Virus record (IMG/VR): IMGVR_UViG_3300021197_000451
Coordinates: 1 to 27,024 of that record
Length of the DNA: 27,024 nucleotides
Direction: 5' to 3' (one strand)
Origin: a virus
The translations under genes were made by a program, and so were the position numbers. This document shows positions 2,453-21,371 of this stretch, one piece after another. Every line of letters begins with the position of its first letter. Position 1 is the first letter of the stretch. The notes under the pieces were generated by a model. That model did not search any database and was not told where the DNA came from. It saw only the letters and a list, made by a program, of their open reading frames with translations.

Positions 2453-2913
2453 TAGTCGCATGCTGCCTCGTATGCTTTGCGCAGTTTGTTAATCTTCTGG
2501 ACCAAGCACCCTCCGCACGACGTGAACTTTAGTTGCGTTTGATAAACTTGTGCGTACACCTTAATGAAGGCATGTTGGTCTGGGGCTGTCATCCTGCCGC
2601 GTTCGTCGGCTGGTTGAATAACTGTCTCCCACAAAGTCTTACTCTCCTCAGACATAGGTTGCGCATAAGGAAACAAGTTGTTCAAAGCCTCCTGTCGTTC
2701 GTTACACCCACAGTCGTCACCAGCAATAGCCTTAACCACCTTGTCTACACCCGTGGCCTTTGTCACCTTGGCTACAGTGTCACCCAAACCACGGCTCTTT
2801 TTCGTGGCCTTCTTTTTCGTAGGCTTCGCCTTTTTCTTTGAGGTGTCGCCTGACTTTCCTTTTGGCGCGGCTGATTCCTTTGTTGATTGTGTTTTTGTTG
2901 ATTCCTGTTGCAT
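2452..2913 (-). CDS. Lysine-rich protein with a conserved Cys-containing C-terminal region
   Basis: The N-terminal 43 residues are low-complexity and lysine-rich (KKKAKPTKKKATKKSRG), similar in composition to histone H1 tails. Next comes GLGDTVAKVTKATGVDKVV, then DDCGCNERQEALNNLFPY, a combination I recall from other Bacteroidota phage proteins of unknown function. The C-terminal part adds a CGGC pair. Four cysteines as CGC and CGGC could bind a metal, but that is inference. The first 44 codons overlap the end of the sigma-like gene by 134 nt in another frame, an unusually long overlap. The true start could therefore be internal, near the conserved GLGDT segment. The stop forms TAATG with the next gene. 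Confidence 0.75.
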   Translation of the reverse strand: MQQESTKTQSTKESAAPKGKSGDTSKKKAKPTKKKATKKSRGLGDTVAKVTKATGVDKVVKAIAGDDCGCNERQEALNNLFPYAQPMSEESKTLWETVIQPADERGRMTAPDQHAFIKVYAQVYQTQLKFTSCGGCLVQKINKLRKAYEAACD

Positions 2914-3358
2914 CGCTTAAACTTTGTAATGTGTGTTCGTGAAGGTAGTAGATTTTGAAAAGTTCAGCCTCAAACCACGGGATGTCTTTGAGTACCAGTT
3001 GTATTGTGCCTAACTTTTCTTGCGTCCATTGGTCTGTGTTGTCGTCGTATGTCTCGTGTGTGTCTGGCAACTTGTGTTCTATCCCGTACCAATTCTTATC
3101 TATGTAGTCGTGGTGCTTTTTGTACTTGGTATAGAACGGTGTGGTTTTGCTGAATGCGTTTATCTTAATTGTCCTGACCAAGTAGTACCACAGTTCTCCC
3201 CTCTGGCAGATGTCATCAAATTTGTCGGGCTTGTCTCCTAAGACCATGATGCACAAGTCCTGCATTAAGTCGTCTCCTAATTCCGTGCCGACGTACATAC
3301 GGCAGATGTCTTGCAGCCTGTCGTACTCCTTTTGAAAAAAGCGTTGGGTGCAGGTCAC
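2780..3358 (-). CDS. Sigma-70 family-like protein (ECF size)
   Basis: The 192-residue protein has two blocks that fit a small sigma factor. A region-2-like part holds GDDLMQDLCIMVL (28-40) and LWYYLVRTIKINAFSK (56-71). A region-4-like helix-turn-helix spans about residues 136-170 (KIYYLHEHTLQSLSDATGIN, then a basic helix RAKRKVRRHLKEK). Such proteins redirect host RNA polymerase; a phage copy could switch on late genes. The start is GTG, overlapping the upstream ninG stop as GTGA. Its last 44 codons overlap the next gene. The blocks are divergent and the linker is long, so a phage-specific DNA-binding protein that only resembles sigma factors remains possible. Confidence 0.65.
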   Translation of the reverse strand: MTCTQRFFQKEYDRLQDICRMYVGTELGDDLMQDLCIMVLGDKPDKFDDICQRGELWYYLVRTIKINAFSKTTPFYTKYKKHHDYIDKNWYGIEHKLPDTHETYDDNTDQWTQEKLGTIQLVLKDIPWFEAELFKIYYLHEHTLQSLSDATGINKNTINKGISRAKRKVRRHLKEKGEAYEKEGHEKEPWFG

Positions 3359-3753
3359 AACTCAGACAACAGTTTTTCGTAGTTCTTTCTCATGGCTACA
3401 ATGTCCACTATGCTGTACTTGCTTGTCTGTTTGCTGAGGTTGTAGATTTTCTCTGCTGTCCCTTTGCCGTACTTGGCATCCAAAGCCAAGCCGTATTTGT
3501 AGTTCTGGTTGCTGTCGTACAAGTTACATCTTGGACATTGGGGCAATACATTGACCATGCCTTCGTCGGGCTGGTGTAGCCATCTTGTGCTGTAGCAGCC
3601 TCGACTCATAAAATGACCCGCGTGCATTTCCTTGGCTGGTTTTTGAACGCCACACGTTATGCAAGTGCAAAGGCCGTACTTGTCCTCATGGAATTTGCGG
3701 ACGTACTTGCTAAACACTTTGTCCAGTTTCTTTATTTCTTTAGACCTGCTCAC
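3355..3753 (-). CDS. ninG: NinG/Rap-like recombination endonuclease
   Basis: The protein (132 aa) matches the lambda NinG (Rap) pattern, a structure-specific nuclease of the HNH type that acts on recombination intermediates. Visible are DKVFSKYVRK near residue 11, a CITC zinc knuckle at 31-34, MHAGHFMSRG at 43-52 with H44 and H47 as candidate active-site residues, a STRW element, and CPRCN with C73/C76. YGLALDAKYGKGTA near 87-100 is also typical. The start is GTG, 14 nt after the preceding stop, and the leader carries TTATATTGTAGAGT, which is shared with the gene starting at 19018. Lambda Rap is about 200 residues, so this is a shorter version. Confidence 0.88.
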   Translation of the reverse strand: MSRSKEIKKLDKVFSKYVRKFHEDKYGLCTCITCGVQKPAKEMHAGHFMSRGCYSTRWLHQPDEGMVNVLPQCPRCNLYDSNQNYKYGLALDAKYGKGTAEKIYNLSKQTSKYSIVDIVAMRKNYEKLLSEL

Positions 3754-11362: not shown

Positions 11363-11923
11363 TTATCCAATAGTAATGTTAGGGAACTCCTTGAAAGGGG
11401 CAGTAGTGCCTCCTGACCCGCTACCCACCATTGTGTAAAAGGCCACTGGTTCTTTACCGACCATTTCCACATTGAACCCATTTGCATCACCAAAGTTTTG
11501 ACCTGTTGTCATCTGGCCTACTGTGACATCCATACCGTTTGAACCACCGAGCAAAAACAAATTGCCTTGGTTGTCTTCTACGATAATGTTTGGAGAACCG
11601 TAAGCCAGCATTTTAATCTGGTTGGCTTGCGTCTGTGTCAACTTATTGAAAGTCAGTGACAGGTTCTGCTCAAAGAAACGTGTGCCAGTAGAAGGGTCAG
11701 CGTTGACGTTGATGCTCAATCCTGCCGCTTCTCTGCGTGTCTCAAAGTAGTACGCTGTCATAGACCCTGTCTCCTCAATCACATGCTTGTAGTCATTTGT
11801 CCCAACAATTGTTGTAGACGCTGCCAAAATATCAGAGTAGTTAATAATGTAAACTCCTTTGATGCCTCCGACAGCATCTTTACAGTTGTCGCTTGCGCGT
11901 CCTGAAGTAATTGTGCAACTCAT
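11363..11923 (-). CDS. Tail-tube-like protein, copy 2 (186 aa)
   Basis: This is a paralogue of the gene just before it. Shared blocks in the same order are CKDAVGGIKGVYIINYSD near residue 14, RREAAGLSINV, TRFFEQNLSLTFNKLTQTQ, IIVEDNQGNLFLLGGSNGMD, and a C-terminal glycine-rich end. This beta-rich pattern with a Cys-rich start matches the major tail tube proteins of Bacteroidota phages. Those proteins stack as hexamers around the tape measure. The first gene of the pair ends exactly where this one begins (a shared base). It may be a minor tube protein, a terminal tube subunit or a decorated variant. The terminator follows 23 nt after its stop. Confidence 0.75.
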   Translation of the reverse strand: MSCTITSGRASDNCKDAVGGIKGVYIINYSDILAASTTIVGTNDYKHVIEETGSMTAYYFETRREAAGLSINVNADPSTGTRFFEQNLSLTFNKLTQTQANQIKMLAYGSPNIIVEDNQGNLFLLGGSNGMDVTVGQMTTGQNFGDANGFNVEMVGKEPVAFYTMVGSGSGGTTAPFKEFPNITIG

Positions 11924-12492
11924 TAGGCATTGATATTGATGTAGTCAAACTCTGTGAACGGAGGCTGACCACTTGAGTCTGTACCATCAAGGGTAAAGAA
12001 TGGTTCTATTTCCCGTCCTGTAAACGTCAAGGTCATGCCGTTCAAATCGCTAAATGCCTTGCCTGTCTCAAAGGTTCCCGCAGTAACGTCCATCCCGTTG
12101 GTGTGACCCAACATGATGAGGTTACCTTGGTTGTCCTCCACAATAATTTGTGGCCTCCCTGCCGCCAACTCAGACAAATTGTCTGCGTCAACTTGCGTCA
12201 GTTTGGTGAAAGTACAAGTAAACACTTGCTCAAAAAACGTAGTTCCCGTCGTTACATCCGACTGCGTGTCTACTGTTAGTGAAGCCATTTCACGCCTTAC
12301 CGCAAACTTATATACTTCGTAGGTGTTAGCCCCACCGCCTATTGCACCAAGGTCAGTAATGACGTTGGCAGCCGTAGCCACGTAACCTGGAAATGCAGAA
12401 GTGTCCGAAAAGTTGTGAATGTAAATCCCTTTGATGCCGCCCGTAGCGTCCTTACAACTGACGCTTCTCCCGCTTGAAATATTACAAGACAT
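11923..12492 (-). CDS. Tail-tube-like protein, copy 1 (189 aa)
   Basis: The protein begins MSCNISSGRSVSCKDATGGI. It continues with KGIYIHNFSD, RREMASLTVDTQSDVTTGTT, FFEQVFTCTFTKLTQVD, RPQIIVEDNQGNLIMLGHTN and GMDVTAGTFETGKAF, all also present in the next gene. I recognise this as the style of tail tube proteins in Bacteroidota siphoviruses, where one beta-sandwich subunit forms the tube. It lies directly after the major capsid gene, at a place normally used for highly made virion proteins. Which of the two copies is the main tube protein cannot be told from sequence. A 21-nt A/C/T-rich leader precedes it. Confidence 0.78.
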   Translation of the reverse strand: MSCNISSGRSVSCKDATGGIKGIYIHNFSDTSAFPGYVATAANVITDLGAIGGGANTYEVYKFAVRREMASLTVDTQSDVTTGTTFFEQVFTCTFTKLTQVDADNLSELAAGRPQIIVEDNQGNLIMLGHTNGMDVTAGTFETGKAFSDLNGMTLTFTGREIEPFFTLDGTDSSGQPPFTEFDYININA

Positions 12493-15061: not shown

Positions 15062-15805
15062 TTAAATGTTGCGATTGAAGAGCATGCCTGTGGCACGGTC
15101 ATAACTGTAATCGTATTCCAAATCTTTCGCGAATTTTTTATAGTCGAAGTAATCTTTGACCTTATCGCCCAACGCGCTTTCCAAGTCTCCGACCACATCG
15201 TAAACGTACCACTCGCCTAATTCGCTGTCTCGCATATCGTACATCTCGTCGTACACGGCTTCAGCCTCTGCAAGTGTGTCGTAGCGGTCTTCCCAGTCGT
15301 CAAGAATAAGTGCGTTCAGGTCTCCGTTGGCTTTAAGAGCAAAACCAAATTGGTCAAAATCAAAGTAGTTGTCAGCCAAGTCTTTGGGAATGTCGTTGCC
15401 ATAAACGTCATCAATTAAGTCGTAAGCGTAGTCCAGCATGCTATCCCATTGCCCTTGGTATGCCTCTTCAAGCCATGTCACAAATTCAGACATGTCGCCA
15501 CTGTAGTAATTCATTCCAGCAGACCACAAGTCATGTGCGTCAATACCAGAAGATTTGGCGTAATCAAAAAAGTCGTTCCAAGCATCCCACTCTGCTTCGT
15601 CCTGCAAAAGTCCCCAAGCATATTTGTCGCTGACAAACGCACCGCCAAGCACATCGTAGTCAACAAACCCCATGCCTTCCAAGCGGCCTCGGAAGTCGTC
15701 GTTAAAGTCGTCCCATGACTTAAATGTCAATGGCTGTTCTACAATGTCGGTGTCACTGTTTGCAGTGTACACTCTAATGTAGACCTCAATGTCTTTCTTA
15801 TTCAT
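15062..15805 (-). CDS. ardA: ArdA-like antirestriction protein with a second C-terminal module
   Basis: ArdA proteins mimic B-form DNA and block type I restriction enzymes. Seen here: an acidic 247-residue protein with an EEAYQGQWDSMLDYAYDLID segment (113-132) and DIPKDLADNYFDFDQFGFAL (138-157). This is the known ArdA ending pattern (hydrophobic-Pro, then YFDY.FA.DL). The module occurs again at 214-234 (DKVKDYFDYKKFAKDLEYDY), so the protein carries two such modules. Usual ArdA is about 165 residues, and this one is about 80 longer. It ends a run of small acidic genes and lies between the protease and capsid genes, an odd position for an early-needed protein. No codon bias test was done. Confidence 0.82.
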   Translation of the reverse strand: MNKKDIEVYIRVYTANSDTDIVEQPLTFKSWDDFNDDFRGRLEGMGFVDYDVLGGAFVSDKYAWGLLQDEAEWDAWNDFFDYAKSSGIDAHDLWSAGMNYYSGDMSEFVTWLEEAYQGQWDSMLDYAYDLIDDVYGNDIPKDLADNYFDFDQFGFALKANGDLNALILDDWEDRYDTLAEAEAVYDEMYDMRDSELGEWYVYDVVGDLESALGDKVKDYFDYKKFAKDLEYDYSYDRATGMLFNRNI

Positions 15806-15816
15806 CTACTAATGTC

Positions 15817-16110
15817 TTAGTGGTCTGTAATGTCAATGAAAATATCGTCCCCGTCCAACATAACGTGTGGAACTAAATAACTAAATTCTCCAAGGTACTC
15901 TTCCACCACAACTGCCAACTCAGCCATGAAATCGTCAAGGCGTCGTGGTTGATAAGCCACTGGTTCGTTGTTGTGCAAAATTCCGTAATCTTCAATAACC
16001 ACGGACGTGTACCTTCCGCGCGAATCATAATCGACCCTGCCGTCAATGTGGTACAAGTCCATGACGTCTTTCACTAACGACGTAATGTATTTGATTTGCG
16101 TGGTATTCAT
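15817..16110 (-). CDS. Small acidic protein of the cassette array (97 aa)
   Basis: I count 19 acidic and 7 basic residues. The start is the ATG directly after the shared leader; a start 20 codons further upstream is possible but would include the leader and the end of the previous gene. The sequence begins MNTTQIKYITSLVKDVMDLY. A helix follows a strand-like segment at LDDFMAELAVVVEEYLGEF, and the end is beta-like (VMLDGDDIFIDITDH). Alternating strand/helix/strand with acidic faces recurs in its neighbours. It is the last array member before the ArdA-like gene. Function unknown; an anti-defence or decoy role is only an inference from composition and context. Confidence 0.75.
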   Translation of the reverse strand: MNTTQIKYITSLVKDVMDLYHIDGRVDYDSRGRYTSVVIEDYGILHNNEPVAYQPRRLDDFMAELAVVVEEYLGEFSYLVPHVMLDGDDIFIDITDH

Positions 16111-16126
16111 ATCGTTGTGGTTTAGG

Positions 16127-16411
16127 TTATAGAGGATTGTACCCAACAAGGATTTGAAAGTCGTATTCACCCATCCTCATTTCCGTATCATAGATTTCTA
16201 TGATTGAACCGACGTGTTCGTGAATCACATCTTTAATGTCCTCAGGGTCACCAGGTTCAATGCCTTCATTTGTAATGAAGCACTCTGCCATATTTGACCT
16301 TGGGTCAAGGTAAAAGTCAAACACATAAGGTCCTCCACTAAAAGTGAGGCTTAGGTCTTCACACGCTGCGGTCAAATCCTGTTCAATTTCTTTGCCTGTA
16401 TAGTATGCCAT
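16127..16411 (-). CDS. Small acidic protein of the cassette array (94 aa)
   Basis: I count 20 acidic and 4 basic residues, net about -16, the most acidic of the series. Pattern: N-terminal helix (KEIEQDLTAACEDLSL), strands (PYVFDFYL, MAECFIT), then PGDPEDIKDVIHEHVG as a helix, then strands (SIIEIYDTE, EYDFQILVGY). This is an alpha-beta fold. It starts one base after the leader ACCACAACGAT and is preceded by TAATAACA. It may share a distant fold with the genes at 16428, 16670 and 18779. Function unknown. Confidence 0.78.
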   Translation of the reverse strand: MAYYTGKEIEQDLTAACEDLSLTFSGGPYVFDFYLDPRSNMAECFITNEGIEPGDPEDIKDVIHEHVGSIIEIYDTEMRMGEYDFQILVGYNPL

Positions 16412-16427
16412 ATCGTTGTGGTTGTTA

Positions 16428-16658
16428 TTAGTGTGGATTGAAGTGGCCTTCGAGAAGGTCGGCTAATTCATATCCCAAATCGCGGGTGTCATTAGAGTCA
16501 TACATTTCTACCTCGGCCTTTACTTGGCCTGCATAGTATTCCGAAGGACTAACAGACCAATCCTTTATTACATCGGGATAATTGTCCTCAAATTGATAAA
16601 GTAGGTCTTCCACTTCACGAAGGTCGAGGTACGTCCAAATGCCCATATATTCTGCCAT
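16428..16658 (-). CDS. Small acidic protein of the cassette array (76 aa)
   Basis: I count 18 acidic and 4 basic residues. The first half is helical (TYLDLREVEDLLYQFEDNYP). The second half reads GQVKAEVEMYDSNDTRDLGY then ELADLLEGHF, that is a strand followed by a negatively charged turn and helix, the layout also seen in the next gene of the array. It starts directly after the shared leader, which begins in the upstream gene's stop codon. No motif of a known enzyme. Function unknown. Confidence 0.78.
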   Translation of the reverse strand: MAEYMGIWTYLDLREVEDLLYQFEDNYPDVIKDWSVSPSEYYAGQVKAEVEMYDSNDTRDLGYELADLLEGHFNPH

Positions 16659-16669
16659 ATCGTTGTGGT

Positions 16670-16900
16670 TTAGTATAGGTAGGTTGTTACGCTTGTGCCC
16701 ATTACGTCTTCTAGGTCAAACACAAATTGCTCATAGTCCAATGTGCTTGGAAACTCTACGTCCATTTCGACGCCGCCTGCCTTTGAATAGATGTCAAGGA
16801 TGGAATCTTCAGGCAAGTCCATCAATGTCAAAACAAGTGACGCGGCATTGATAACGTCCGCCTTGCTTGCGCGTTCTACAAATACGTTTGCTTCAATCAT
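16670..16900 (-). CDS. Small acidic protein of the cassette array (76 aa)
   Basis: I count 15 acidic and 3 basic residues. Begins MIEANVFVERASKADVINAA with a helix, and continues with GGVEMDVEFPSTLDYEQFVF as strand then helix, ending in TSVTTYLY. The strand-turn-helix (VEMDVEF then STLDYEQFV) matches the second half of the 16428 gene and the 18779 gene in layout, although identity looks low by eye. The preceding micro-ORF overlaps its start as ATGA. Its stop is the first base of the next leader. Confidence 0.78.
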   Translation of the reverse strand: MIEANVFVERASKADVINAASLVLTLMDLPEDSILDIYSKAGGVEMDVEFPSTLDYEQFVFDLEDVMGTSVTTYLY

Positions 16901-16950
16901 ATCGTTGTGGTTACATGTAAAAATCGGTGTACTTCAAAATAAAATTCCAT
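16897..16950 (-). CDS. Micro-ORF with a full array leader (17 aa)
   Basis: The 17-codon frame MEFYFEVHRFLHVTTTI starts directly after a perfect ACCACAACGAT leader and ends in TGA overlapping the start of the next gene. It reads straight through the second leader copy. The leader alone argues that ribosomes start here. It could be a short regulatory leader peptide, or the remnant of a cassette that lost its body by recombination. Too short for any family assignment. Confidence 0.4.
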   Translation of the reverse strand: MEFYFEVHRFLHVTTTI

Positions 16951-16961
16951 ATCGTTGTGGT

Positions 16962-17237
16962 TTAGTAAATAGACGAGTCATAACGCAAGTATTCTTCATC
17001 CAACCACGCCAAGACTTCATCAATTAAATCTTGCTCAGGTGTGCCGTCCAAATAATTTGCCGCCTCAAATAAAATGTCTGTCGCTTTTTCATACCCGTCC
17101 AACCCGCGATTGTCTAAAATTTGGTACGCGGTAATAACGGCAAAGTAAGCGTCTCCGTTGGGCAATTCGTCTGCAATTGTTTGCAACCCATCAAATCCCT
17201 CCCGAGCCATAATGTCGTATGCTTGTCGTCCATTCAT
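16962..17237 (-). CDS. Small acidic helical protein of the cassette array (91 aa)
   Basis: I count 20 acidic and 5 basic residues. The predicted structure is all helical: MNGRQAYDIMAREGFDGLQT, AYFAVITAYQILDNRGLDG, YEKATDILFEAANYLDG, DLIDEVLAWLDEEYLRY. This differs from the alpha-beta members, so the array holds at least two fold types behind one leader. The leader before this gene has one base difference (ACGAC instead of ACGAT). Its stop merges with the next leader. Function unknown. Confidence 0.78.
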   Translation of the reverse strand: MNGRQAYDIMAREGFDGLQTIADELPNGDAYFAVITAYQILDNRGLDGYEKATDILFEAANYLDGTPEQDLIDEVLAWLDEEYLRYDSSIY

Positions 17238-17248
17238 GTCGTTGTGGT

Positions 17249-17506
17249 TTAGCCGAAGGACACTACGTCGAGCAACTCGTAAAGCATATTGTCAAGCAAT
17301 CCCTTTGACTCACCTCGAGCGGCATCAAAGTGGTCGTTGCGAATTTCTCGCAACACCTCTTGAAACTCACGCTCGTTATAGGTGTAGGCGATTGCATCCA
17401 AAATCATTTCGACCGCTGCATCAAATGCTCCGCTGGTAATAATGCCTATTCGGTCTGCAGTGTCCAAGTAGTGAATCACTACGTCTTCAAGTTTGTTGTA
17501 ATTCAT
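17249..17506 (-). CDS. Small acidic helical protein of the cassette array (85 aa), first member
   Basis: I count 17 acidic and 7 basic residues. All-helical in appearance: NKLEDVVIHYLDTADRIG, GAFDAAVEMILDAIAYTYNE, REFQEVLREIRNDHFDAARG, LLDNMLYELLDVVSF. It is the first cassette after the protease gene; the protease stop codon is the first base triplet of its leader, so translation is coupled. It may be a distant relative of the 16962 gene by helix order and length, but I cannot show this by eye. Function unknown. Confidence 0.78.
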   Translation of the reverse strand: MNYNKLEDVVIHYLDTADRIGIITSGAFDAAVEMILDAIAYTYNEREFQEVLREIRNDHFDAARGESKGLLDNMLYELLDVVSFG

Positions 17507-17516
17507 ATCGTTGTGG

Positions 17517-18782
17517 TTAGCTGTATTGTTCTAATGTGCCAACGGCTGTCAGCAGCACGTCAATGTAAGTTTGTACTGCGCGGTCTGCGTAGTCGTAAGC
17601 CTTAGCCAAATGGTCTCGTGTCGCATCCACGTCTCCTTTCTCCGCTGCCCGTGCTGCATCCATCATGCAGTCGTACACTTGAGAATCCAGTTCTGGAAAT
17701 ACCTCAAGGGCTACATCTCCAATGGCGTAAGACAACGCCTCACCTGTTTCTCCCCATGTATCAAATGAGTCGTCTACAAGGTTTTGTGCGTCACGCTTTG
17801 CGCTTAGTGCTGTCTGTTTCATCTCAGACAATGTAACATTTTTCGCACCTTTTCCAAACTTTTTAGAATACCTTGTTTTCAACAAAGCCTTGTAGAAATC
17901 TACTTTCATGGCATCCAACTCAGTTACTGGGTCTTCTGCTGGCACTTCGCTGTCCTCTACCGCTTGGGCTTCGCCGTCGTATTCCAAAAGAACACCGTCG
18001 TACACCTCCAAGTCAATTCCCCCCTCAGTAGTATAGCTACCGTTTGACAGTTCAATAGGCTGACCATCTTCGTCTAACGTGTACACTGGTGCGCCTACCG
18101 TCAACTTCTCATGCTCCGTTACCACAGACTTGCCGTTGGTCAACGTAGCCTCTGCGTAGAAGTTCTTTTTGTTTAGGACTACAGCGTCAAAGATAGCCTC
18201 AAGCATGCCCTTTTTTTTTGGCTTCTTAGCGGCTTGCATCTTCTCTACCTTATCCAGAAAGTAGCCTTCAATGCTTAGTCCTTTTGCCTCTCCTGCTTTA
18301 ATCTTCTCCCAAATTTCTGGGTTGTCTACCTTGGCCCGTACCATCCATGTGCCTTTAGGCAAGTCAGTAAAGCCATACAATTTGGCCTTGTCCACTGAGG
18401 GGTCTTGAATAATCCATGACTCCACTACGCTTACACCCTCGACAGGCTCGGCATGTTCAAAGGTGTGTGCGTTGGCTCTGTTGTTTTTTAGGAACAACTC
18501 GCTTGCCAACTTAACCGTGTCCTGAGAAAAATACACATCGTACTCTTCGTCAGCGGCTTCGTCGTACCTCACAATTTTTAGGTCTGGAATAAGGGCAGGT
18601 GCAATCAAAGTGCGCTGCTCTTCGTCCATCTGTGCAAGGTGAATCATTTTGTTCTGGTTGCCTTGCTTGTTAAAGGCTACCCAGTTGACCTGAATAGCAG
18701 GCTCACGAACCAACGAAATGGCCTCTACACCAAAGGCGTGACTGTCTTCGTCAATCAATAACTCGATAAGTTTGCGACTCAT
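17517..18782 (-). CDS. XkdF-like prohead protease with C-terminal extension (421 aa)
   Basis: The N-terminal 175 residues match the phage serine protease XkdF type (Peptidase_S78_2): conserved start (LIELLIDEDSHAFGVEAISL), NAHTFEHAEPVEGVSVVESW (104-122, H110 as candidate catalytic residue) and IKAGEAKGLSIEGYFLDKVE (161-180, S170 as candidate nucleophile). The protease would mature the capsid or remove scaffold. A beta-rich module follows (DEDGQPIELSNGSYTTEGGI). A helical end (residues about 285-421, VDFYKALLKTRYSKKFGKGA) may act as internal scaffold. Between these parts there is a run of nine A in frame (see the slippery site). The stop codon merges with the first array leader. Start overlaps the 18779 gene by 4 nt. 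Confidence 0.85.
   Translation of the reverse strand: MSRKLIELLIDEDSHAFGVEAISLVREPAIQVNWVAFNKQGNQNKMIHLAQMDEEQRTLIAPALIPDLKIVRYDEAADEEYDVYFSQDTVKLASELFLKNNRANAHTFEHAEPVEGVSVVESWIIQDPSVDKAKLYGFTDLPKGTWMVRAKVDNPEIWEKIKAGEAKGLSIEGYFLDKVEKMQAAKKPKKKGMLEAIFDAVVLNKKNFYAEATLTNGKSVVTEHEKLTVGAPVYTLDEDGQPIELSNGSYTTEGGIDLEVYDGVLLEYDGEAQAVEDSEVPAEDPVTELDAMKVDFYKALLKTRYSKKFGKGAKNVTLSEMKQTALSAKRDAQNLVDDSFDTWGETGEALSYAIGDVALEVFPELDSQVYDCMMDAARAAEKGDVDATRDHLAKAYDYADRAVQTYIDVLLTAVGTLEQYS
18211..18219 (-). other. A-AAA-AAG slippery run between protease and C-terminal domain
   Basis: The minus strand has nine A followed by GGGC in frame as CCA AAA AAA AAG GGC (K189-K191), which contains the classic -1 slippery heptamer A-AAA-AAG. 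After a -1 slip, reading continues GGG CAT GCT TGA and stops, giving a 194-residue protease without its C-terminal part. Transcriptional slippage on nine A is also possible. Confidence 0.45.
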
Positions 18783-19037: not shown

Positions 19038-21371
19038 TTACAACGAGGCTCTTTGTTCGATGCGTCCTAAGCGTTCCGTCTGCCCTTGCAATTCTGACTG
19101 AACCACAAACGCCTTAAAATTACGGTCCTCGTTTTCACTGGTAAATTCATTCTGGTTTTGCTGTGGAATCAAAGGTGTCACCTGTACTGGGCTGCTGGCA
19201 ACACTTGTCGCTCCTGAAGCCTGTGCCTGATTCATCAAACCTTTGACTTGTGAAAAGGCTGCTACGATGCTACCCACAATGCCTGCGATATATCCTGCAA
19301 TAACAAACGGTGCGGCTGGTCCTGCATCCTTACCCGCTTTTACCGCTGCTGCAATACCGTCTGCAATCGCGGTAGCCTGCGAAATAAGGACTTGAGTAAT
19401 AGCCAAACGCTTTGCCCTCTCTGCTCCCTGCTCTTCAATACGCTGTATCTCTTTGTCTGTTGCGTCCCTTTCGCGTGCTGCGTTGACTTCTGCCTGTGTC
19501 GTCTCCTCCACCAAATCTTGGTACTGCCCAATTACGCTATTTAGGTTGTCAACCAAATTGATTTTGCTCTGCAAGACTCGTTCGTCTTCCTTAATCTGAG
19601 CGTCTGCACCCTCCTTGGCTATCGCTGCTTTGTCCGCTTCAAAAGCCCGCAAAGCTAATAGTTCAAGTTCTGCACCGTCTTTAGCTATCGCTGCTTTGTC
19701 CGCTTCAAAAGCCCGCAAAGCTAATAACTCAAGTTCTGCACCGTCTTTAGCTATTGTTGCTTTGTCTGCTTCAAAAGCCTGCAAAGCTAATAGTTCAAGT
19801 TCTTCGTTGCCTTTTGCATCCAACATGCGTTCCTCAAAAGCCTGTTGTGCATCTATCAAAGACACCTCTTCGTTGCCTTTAGCGACCAACATGCGTTCCT
19901 CAAAAGCCTGTTGTGCATTCATCAAAAACACCTCTTCGTTGCCTTTAGCGACCAACATGCGTTCCTCAAAAGCCTGTTGTGCATCTATCAAAGACACCTC
20001 CGCGTCAGTCATAAACATCTTGCGCAACTCCTCCTGCAAACGTGTCTGCTGTTCCAGTTGTTTGTTAGGTATGGCCGCAAGGTCGTCCTGCCTTGCCTTC
20101 TCCAAAGCAACCGTATCTACCCCGTACTCCTCGGCCAACTTAATAAGTTCGTCGTATTGCTTATTGACTTGCTTGCGCTGTCGTTGGTCTTGTGACAGTG
20201 TTGCAGACTCGATGCGCTCTAAAGCGTCTTTCTCTTTTTCTGCTCGTGTCTCGTTATAGCCGTCTTGCAATTCCGTCAACTGCTCGTTGTGCTTTGCCTG
20301 TAGACGCTCTAACCCTTCGTTGCTCAATTCAGCAGACTTTGCCCTGTCCATTTCTGCCTTTTGCTGACGCTTCAGGCGCATGGTCTCCAACTCCTCACCC
20401 TCTTTACCTAACTCCTGTTCAAAGATTTTCAGGTCGTCTAAGAACTGTAGCCTTTGTTTCTCTCTCTTCTCAGCATCGGCAATAGCCCTTTTACTGGCTT
20501 GCTCTGCTGCTCTCTCGGCTTCTGCACGCTCCTTTGTGCGCTCTGCGCTTTCCCCTACAAGAGCATTGTACGCTGCCTGTGCTGCTGCCAACTCAGCGGT
20601 TGCCTCTTTGTTTGCTGCATCCGCTTCTGCCTGTTCTGCATTTACGCGCACCTGCGTTTCCTGCAACGATTCCCAAAAGGTTTTCTGCTCTAAGAGACCT
20701 GATTGGGTTTGGTCCTGTGCGGCCAAATCTTTTTCTTGAAATTCTGCCAGCGTTTGTTGTTGCTTTATACGCGCACGCTCTAAGTCTTCTTTGACCTTTA
20801 GTGCTGCATTTGCCTGTTCAATTTGCGTTGCTGCGTCTGCTTCAAGGTCAATAATATTGTTGAACTCTTTGTTCAAAGCAGCCAAAGCCTCTGCCCTTTG
20901 CGCTTCTGTTGCGGCTTCGTTTTCTAAAACTGCAATGTACCCCGACGTACTTGTCGTCAACTGCTGAACCGCTTTATCTTGTTCTGCTGTCAACTTCGCA
21001 TTTTTCTCTGCTTCCGCATCTACAAACCCCAGTGCTTCGGCTACTGCATCCCAGTTTTCAACTAAGGCTTCAAGAGCAAGAATAATAAGACCAATACCAA
21101 TGCTGGCCCATGCTGCTTTAAGAGCCTTAAAACTGCGTGAAACTCGTTTAACACCACGCTCTGTAGACTTAAAAGAGCGCAGCAGTCCTTGAATGTTACG
21201 AGGTAACAGCCCCGAGAACAAGTCTGCCACCCCTCCCCAATCTTTGTTTGCGTCTTTTGCGCTCCTGCTTGCGGTCTTGCCGACTTCGTTTAAGTCTTCT
21301 GCAAAGTCCTCCAACTGCCTTGCAGCGTCTTCTGTCTTGACCGTTAGGTTAACTGTAATATCACTTGCCAT
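19038..21371 (-). CDS. Tail tape measure protein (777 aa)
   Basis: This ruler protein sets tail length and fills the tube until DNA ejection. Evidence: a long helical, Ala/Glu/Lys-rich protein, with coiled-coil body, a hydrophobic N-terminal segment (WASIGIGLIILALEALVENW, about 88-107) and a C-terminal membrane-active segment (PAAPFVIAGYIAGIVGSIVA, about 689-708). It contains six 22-residue repeats at 458-589. No separate tail assembly chaperone with a frameshift is seen next to it. The start overlaps the stop of the upstream 55-codon gene. By the usual rule of about 1.5 angstrom per residue the tail would be roughly 110-120 nm. Confidence 0.9.
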   Translation of the reverse strand: MASDITVNLTVKTEDAARQLEDFAEDLNEVGKTASRSAKDANKDWGGVADLFSGLLPRNIQGLLRSFKSTERGVKRVSRSFKALKAAWASIGIGLIILALEALVENWDAVAEALGFVDAEAEKNAKLTAEQDKAVQQLTTSTSGYIAVLENEAATEAQRAEALAALNKEFNNIIDLEADAATQIEQANAALKVKEDLERARIKQQQTLAEFQEKDLAAQDQTQSGLLEQKTFWESLQETQVRVNAEQAEADAANKEATAELAAAQAAYNALVGESAERTKERAEAERAAEQASKRAIADAEKREKQRLQFLDDLKIFEQELGKEGEELETMRLKRQQKAEMDRAKSAELSNEGLERLQAKHNEQLTELQDGYNETRAEKEKDALERIESATLSQDQRQRKQVNKQYDELIKLAEEYGVDTVALEKARQDDLAAIPNKQLEQQTRLQEELRKMFMTDAEVSLIDAQQAFEERMLVAKGNEEVFLMNAQQAFEERMLVAKGNEEVSLIDAQQAFEERMLDAKGNEELELLALQAFEADKATIAKDGAELELLALRAFEADKAAIAKDGAELELLALRAFEADKAAIAKEGADAQIKEDERVLQSKINLVDNLNSVIGQYQDLVEETTQAEVNAARERDATDKEIQRIEEQGAERAKRLAITQVLISQATAIADGIAAAVKAGKDAGPAAPFVIAGYIAGIVGSIVAAFSQVKGLMNQAQASGATSVASSPVQVTPLIPQQNQNEFTSENEDRNFKAFVVQSELQGQTERLGRIEQRASL
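19605..20000 (-). repeat. Six tandem 66-bp repeats inside the tape measure gene
   Basis: Two related types of 22 residues each: three copies near EVSLIDAQQAFEERMLVAKG and then three copies near ELELLALRAFEADKAAIAKD. The two types share E-hydrophobic, AFE, and AK at similar positions, so all six may come from one ancestor. The phase is exact (six times 66 bp). Copies within each type differ by only a few bases. Confidence 0.92.

Follow-up and report, generated by a model that had tools for sequence, protein, structure and literature searches.

The array and its leader

The window analysed here is a viral record of 27,024 bases (IMGVR_UViG_3300021197_000451), and all positions refer to the whole of it. 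On its minus strand, a head maturation protease gene and a gene for an ArdA-like anti-restriction protein enclose an array of small genes that stand behind one short leader, and the subject of this report is that leader, the joint to which it belongs and the gene cassettes that the joint connects (Table 1).

A scan of the window for AACCACAACGA(T/C)-ATG gave seven copies between 16108 and 17518, all on the minus strand. Six copies read exactly AACCACAACGAT and one carries a single change (AACCACAACGAC), with ATG directly 3' of every copy, as the initial annotation had described. Leader copies are confined to 16111-17518, no other gene start in the window is preceded by one, and the sole further match with at most one mismatch in the 27 kb (1706-1717) does not lie ahead of the start codon of any listed gene. 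Because the chance expectation for a given 12-mer is about 0.003 (27 kb, both strands), six exact copies are not attributable to chance. The leader merges with the preceding stop codon at four junctions (17517, 17249, 16962 and 16670), again as first reported. Its description as something other than a Shine-Dalgarno sequence also stands: GGAG, GAGG and AGGA are all absent from AACCACAACGAT, and a Shine-Dalgarno site was rejected on this basis.

The count of seven genes behind the leader is correct for the leader copies but not for the genes, of which six are credible and the seventh is a doubtful open reading frame (ORF) of 17 codons. This ORF was considered as a piece of another cassette and rejected as such, its match being limited to the leader and a few bases; no relative of it was found. 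Most probably it was left behind by the deletion of a cassette. Within the window the leader is found only in the array, as claimed, but in relatives it can also stand ahead of the head protease gene when the protease follows the array.

Table 1. Coordinates of the array, its leader copies and associated genes (aa, amino acids; pI, isoelectric point; pLDDT, predicted local distance difference test score)
Feature	Position	Strand	Remarks
Head maturation protease, 421 aa, left array boundary	17517..18782	-	phrog_24921 E 9e-46, phrog_3017 E 3e-13
Leader copy 1, AACCACAACGAT	17507..17518	-	merged with head protease stop codon
Cassette gene F7, 85 aa, pI<5	17249..17506	-	four-helix model, pLDDT 92
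Leader copy 2, AACCACAACGAC, one change	17238..17249	-	
Cassette gene F48, 91 aa	16962..17237	-	relative in L022, different neighbourhood
Leader copy 3, AACCACAACGAT	16951..16962	-	ahead of 17-codon ORF
17-codon ORF, between two leaders 50 nt apart	16897..16950	-	TGA overlaps next ATG
Leader copy 4, AACCACAACGAT	16901..16912	-	
Cassette gene F4, 76 aa	16670..16900	-	family behind three different leader types
Leader copy 5, AACCACAACGAT	16659..16670	-	
Cassette gene F136, 76 aa	16428..16658	-	no relative found
Leader copy 6, AACCACAACGAT	16412..16423	-	
Cassette gene F26, 94 aa	16127..16411	-	
Leader copy 7, AACCACAACGAT	16111..16122	-	
Cassette gene F9, 97 aa	15817..16110	-	alpha/beta model, pLDDT 87; 98% identical leader-bounded DNA block in L054
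ArdA-like anti-restriction protein, 247 aa, right array boundary	15062..15805	-	PF07275 47.1 bits (cut-off 27), phrog_2059 E 6e-13
NinG/Rap junction-specific endonuclease, outside array	3355..3753	-	PF05766 51 bits, phrog_5034 E 2e-22

Related arrays and host group

Related arrays were gathered by a scan of IMG/VR for the leader followed by ATG, together with a search for the protease, and the set after removal of redundancy comprises 45 arrays with 266 cassettes in 121 families, including 61 singletons. The arrays are found immediately ahead of or behind the protease gene, and each has its own near-uniform leader, which is AACCACAACGAT, AACAACAGAGAT (the commonest), AACAACTTAAAG or AATAAAAAGAAT, with the small variants AACCACAGAGAT and ACCAACAGAGAT. 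Across whole contigs of relatives, copies of the AACAACAGAGAT leader are concentrated in the array on a single strand, and a scan with AACAACTTAAAG gave mostly single matches that are probably due to chance.

The initial annotation had held that a specific role for the leader would fall if relatives kept the small genes without it or if it stood at random genes across host genomes. The comparisons made came out on the side of such a role. In a search of 2.9 million viral contigs, relatives of F7 occurred at ten loci and those of a second window cassette gene at seven, every one of them in an array-bearing contig, and the element is not scattered over the other genes of the array contigs. A tblastn search with five window cassettes against 50,697 phage records gave no relatives, none of F7 was found in genome contigs, and literature searches yielded no description of such arrays among the papers covered.

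The portal protein and protease have the Nonlabens phages P12024S/L (Flavobacteriia) as their nearest cultured relatives, and relatives of the protease occur in Flavobacteriales, Bacteroidetes and Sphingobacterium genomes, with some metagenome-assembled genomes labelled otherwise; both results support the early guess of a Bacteroidota phage. In the first 12 kb of P12024S, the part examined, the protease gene is directly followed by the next gene and no array is present there.

Structure of the joint

When unrelated cassettes from the same array are compared, nucleotide identity is about 0.27 up to position -15, rises to 0.78-0.99 over -14 to -1 and drops to about 0.3 a few bases past the ATG. 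The upstream gene ends in TAA at 220 of 221 joints (18 of 30 among the other window genes), and the gap from TAA to ATG is exactly 11 nucleotides (nt) in 184 of the 221. Since identity rises from -14 and nearly all upstream stops are TAA, the stop codon is part of the conserved unit, which is TAA-N11-ATG, 17 nt in length, with ACCACAACGAT as N11 in the window. The 12-nt element of the initial annotation is thus a real repeat but falls short of the full unit, TAA-ACCACAACGAT-ATG. A promoter was considered and rejected, the leader abutting the ATG and the joints being only 11 nt long.

In family F18 (L091:4466, L118:4711, L119:3920 and L200) the leader is two bases shorter (AACAACAGAG-ATG), showing that the spacing from joint to start can shift in a family-specific manner. 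Family F12 (L091:3157, L099:6638, L120:3036) is a protein of 268-273 aa encoded inside several arrays, usually with the array leader, and could belong to the virion instead of being an accessory product.

Exchange of cassettes at the joint

Where cassettes are shared between arrays, the upstream neighbour is the same in 46 array pairs and different in 585. For 82 pairs of cassettes with at least 80% nt identity and different upstream genes, identity begins exactly at -14, and for 106 pairs with different downstream genes it is lost right after the next ATG. The window and its relatives L054 and L063 illustrate this directly: the protease DNA is 95-99% identical up to the stop codon, the arrays are almost wholly different, and the first leader copy of the window is the exact point at which the protease (99.1% nt identity to L054, 95.1% to L063) gives way to unrelated cassettes. 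The last window cassette recurs in L054 as a block bounded by leaders. Single-cassette gain or loss is seen in the pair L113 and L111, in which L113 has one extra cassette with clean joints and the following 3 kb are 99.9% identical. Comparison of the arrays thereby shows that exchange of cassettes takes place at the joint, and the suggestion of the initial annotation that the leader might be a seam for recombining cassettes is strongly supported by these break points, shuffled neighbours and single-cassette differences.

Exchange also follows leader type. The leader type of their own array precedes 246 of the 266 cassettes and another type precedes none, the remaining 20 being without a close leader. 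Most of the set was gathered through likeness to the array leader; the cassettes that fill gaps were gathered without it, and none of these has a foreign type. Seventeen families are present in arrays of two or more leader types. Cassettes at least 80% identical in nt sequence were found in 46 of 285 array pairs with the same leader and in none of 327 pairs with different leaders (protease identity 0.40-0.75). When pairs were limited to a G+C difference below 0.04, sharing was seen in 46 of 257 same-leader and 0 of 137 different-leader pairs, and none of 5,000 permutations of the labels gave a between-leader count as low as that observed.

In the protease tree the AACAACAGAGAT type extends across deep branches and AACAACTTAAAG is nested near some of them. 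The proteases of L082 and L139 are 97% identical and their leaders differ throughout (AACAACTTAAAG in L082, AATAAAAAGAAT in L139), a difference that is, as judged from the sequences, a recent wholesale change of the array. The two arrays also lie on different sides of the protease gene.

Role of the leader in translation

In predicted RNA, the leader region has an unpaired probability of about 0.65, compared with 0.43 for gene-internal controls. Initiation in Flavobacterium johnsoniae is favoured by A at -3, -6, -12 and -13 (PMC6847099); read with the A upstream of it, the leader fits three of these positions, carrying A at -13, -12 and -6, but position -3 is a G in the two main types. That the leader acts in initiation is therefore plausible, and the earlier proposal of a dedicated initiation element agrees with the open RNA and the three A positions, if not with the G at -3. 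Pairing of the leader with rRNA is considered unlikely because the leader types differ.

Cargo of the cassettes

The cassettes encode small proteins, with a median length of 78 aa. Of 295 examined, 99.7% have a pI below 5 and the median charge is -12, compared with pI values from 4 to 11 for the other proteins of the window. The models of F7 and F9 are confidently predicted and have unrelated folds; a fold search of both against the PDB gave no informative match, F9 resembling only small two-layer alpha/beta folds, designed proteins included. Among 117 representatives scanned against Pfam, PHROGs and NCBIfam, the one Pfam match apart from ArdA was to DUF3846, and no anti-CRISPR was identified.

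The acidity of the cassette proteins, the ArdA neighbour and the location beside the head protease, a site comparable to that of the anti-CRISPR locus in Pseudomonas Mu-like phages (PMC4704812), suggest that the cassettes most likely encode rapidly turning-over anti-defence proteins, some of which are perhaps DNA mimics. Alternatively, they may be internal proteins of the virion, in keeping with the place of the array among late genes.

Neighbouring genes

The product of the ArdA gene scores above the gathering threshold of the Pfam ArdA profile and has a pI of 4.05 and a charge of -40. The gene has no leader in the window and is followed downstream by further virion genes. A search of the ArdA profile against PDB sequences gave no match.

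The window and 16 of 23 related contigs carry NinG/Rap, the only recombination gene found. Adjoining it in the window is the gene (2780-3358) of a protein that has a weak likeness to sigma-70 region 4 and might be a phage sigma factor. Elsewhere in the window, a 777-aa gene (19038-21371), whose product is perhaps the tape measure protein, contains tandem 66-nt repeats (22 codons) at 19603-20005, in two families of three copies each, and a tandem duplication is present among the virion genes at 11363-12492, where two neighbouring genes each match phrog_19091.

Interpretation and alternatives

We consider it probable that the locus is an exchangeable gene-cassette array with a shared joint that includes the start region and with probable anti-defence cargo. 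Each cassette would consist of one small ORF ending in TAA, and fixed 17-nt TAA-N11-ATG joints would link successive cassettes. With N11 nearly uniform within a phage and different between phage lineages, the joint would make any cassette interchangeable. Homologous recombination between the joints of co-infecting phages, by annealing or with the help of RecA or Rap, might then add, remove or swap whole cassettes with reading frames intact. The joint would in addition provide the region where translation starts in hosts that do without Shine-Dalgarno sequences, so that an incoming ORF may be expressed at once. The cargo next to ArdA and the head protease, made up of proteins about 44-112 aa long that are nearly all strongly acidic, would form an anti-defence set.

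The enzyme is the weakest step of this explanation. NinG/Rap is a candidate helper of recombination; in lambda, RecA-dependent exchange falls several hundred-fold when rap is deleted (PMC3945230). The shortest segments reported to allow pairing are 23-27 bp for Red-beta and 31-34 bp for RecA (PMC3945230).

Several points weigh against the explanation as a whole. The 17-nt joint is shorter than both of these segments, and exchange at the joint alone would therefore be rare unless flanking cassettes match. No ERF, RecT, Rad52, AAA_24 (Sak4-type) or tyrosine integrase gene was found in the 19-24 contigs searched, which are possibly incomplete. Selection against broken genes would likewise leave break points at gene ends. 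Because the array pairs are not independent of one another, the Fisher p-value for the contrast between leader types is nominal. The AACCACAACGAT type forms a single clade in the protease tree, leader type being partly tied to the phage backbone, and host or habitat could therefore also explain the gating of exchange by leader. As to cargo, the 117 representatives gave no anti-defence match except the ArdA gene itself, and the case for an anti-defence role consists solely of acidity, position and ArdA.

It is unlikely, in our estimate, that the leader is merely a strong or phage-specific start signal, with cassettes moved by illegitimate recombination and selection both keeping the break points at gene ends and re-creating the leader. 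The position of the leader directly before ATG, the open RNA and A at positions favourable in Flavobacterium (PMC6847099) fit such a signal, as do the few cassettes with shifted or partial leaders, for example AACAACAGAG-ATG. Yet at least four different leaders serve related phages, which argues against a single optimum, the upstream TAA belongs to the conserved unit, other genes of the same phages lack the leader, recent exchange is limited to equal leaders and no cassette with a foreign leader was seen in transit. Still less probable is a translational operator or recruiting site for one phage protein or RNA, as the initial annotation had entertained, each lineage having its own factor and matching leader. 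Uniformity within a genome, difference between lineages and exclusivity to the array all agree with an operator, which would come close to the reading proposed for the start-associated sequences of mycobacteriophages (PMC3203893). Direct support is lacking, however: no candidate factor was found, though no systematic search was made, four leader types occur in related phages, the leader region is unstructured, and the break points at the leader would need a separate explanation.

An integron-like site-specific system, in which the leader is the attachment site of a dedicated recombinase, is in our view highly improbable, for all that the array shares with integrons: single-ORF cassettes in one orientation, a fixed common joint at which single cassettes are gained and lost, and open-ended cargo. 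No IntI-type tyrosine recombinase was found with the array (PF00589 is absent in 19 array contigs, possibly incomplete; serine recombinases were not searched for), the joint has no visible inverted core sites and no apparent attC-like fold, it carries the start region of the gene, and its sequence differs between the close relatives L082 and L139.

Returning to the exchangeable array, a stronger formulation may be put forward tentatively, at somewhat less than even chance: a previously undescribed gene-capture system in which the joint is both translation start and homology tag. Lytic phages with the same tag would share an open reservoir of small acidic anti-defence genes, comprising more than 120 families, with other tags shut out of recent exchange, in a manner resembling an integron without an integrase.

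Comparison with known systems

The promoter early stem-loop (PeSL) elements of T4-type phages (Arbiol et al., 2010; Comeau et al., 2014), as summarized in PMC4503421 and PMC4177764, are short repeated regulatory sequences between small genes of accessory regions that mediate modular shuffling, and the array likewise has a repeat at the borders of shuffled small genes. In those accounts, however, PeSLs combine a promoter with a terminator stem-loop, whereas the joint here is a stop codon, 11 nt and a start codon, which leaves no room for a promoter and stem-loop, and its leader region is open. The present array also differs in lying in the head-gene region and in having lineage-specific joints that confine recent traffic.

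The start-associated sequences (SAS and ESAS) of Cluster K mycobacteriophages are asymmetric repeats of 12-13 nt just before the starts of genes of different families, sometimes include the previous stop codon and are limited to one phage group (PMC3203893). The leader is also an asymmetric repeat upstream of genes of different families, but its sequence differs from the SAS consensus GGGATAGGAGCCC and lacks AGGAG. SAS contain AGGAG, which pairs with 16S rRNA, lie 3-7 bp before the start, mostly after gaps of more than 50 bp, and are distributed over the right half of the genome; that study did not report them as cassette break points (PMC3203893). The leader, in contrast, has no Shine-Dalgarno sequence, directly adjoins the ATG, merges with the TAA that precedes it and belongs to one array. 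The array works like PeSL and resembles SAS, and in each case a defining feature is missing from it.

The anti-CRISPR locus of Pseudomonas Mu-like phages is similar in placing variable small genes at a fixed site beside a head protease/scaffold gene, but it comes with a promoter of its own and a gene for a helix-turn-helix regulator, and a shared leader for each gene was not described there (PMC4704812). Short conserved sequences at gene borders have also been proposed to guide module recombination in lambdoid phages (Clark et al., 2001, as summarized in PMC3945230). Here one joint serves every border of the array. The lambdoid boundary sequences, in contrast, reportedly differ from border to border.

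The known kind of process to which the array belongs is repeat-mediated modular shuffling in phages, represented here by a joint of unusual clarity and by a large pool of genes still to be explored. Gene-by-gene mosaicism with a visible, lineage-specific joint makes the idea of mosaicism at short boundary homologies directly testable in these phages. The joint itself provides a sequence tag with which further cassettes can be mined, and the more than 120 families of uncharacterised small acidic proteins are candidate inhibitors of the defences of Bacteroidota bacteria.

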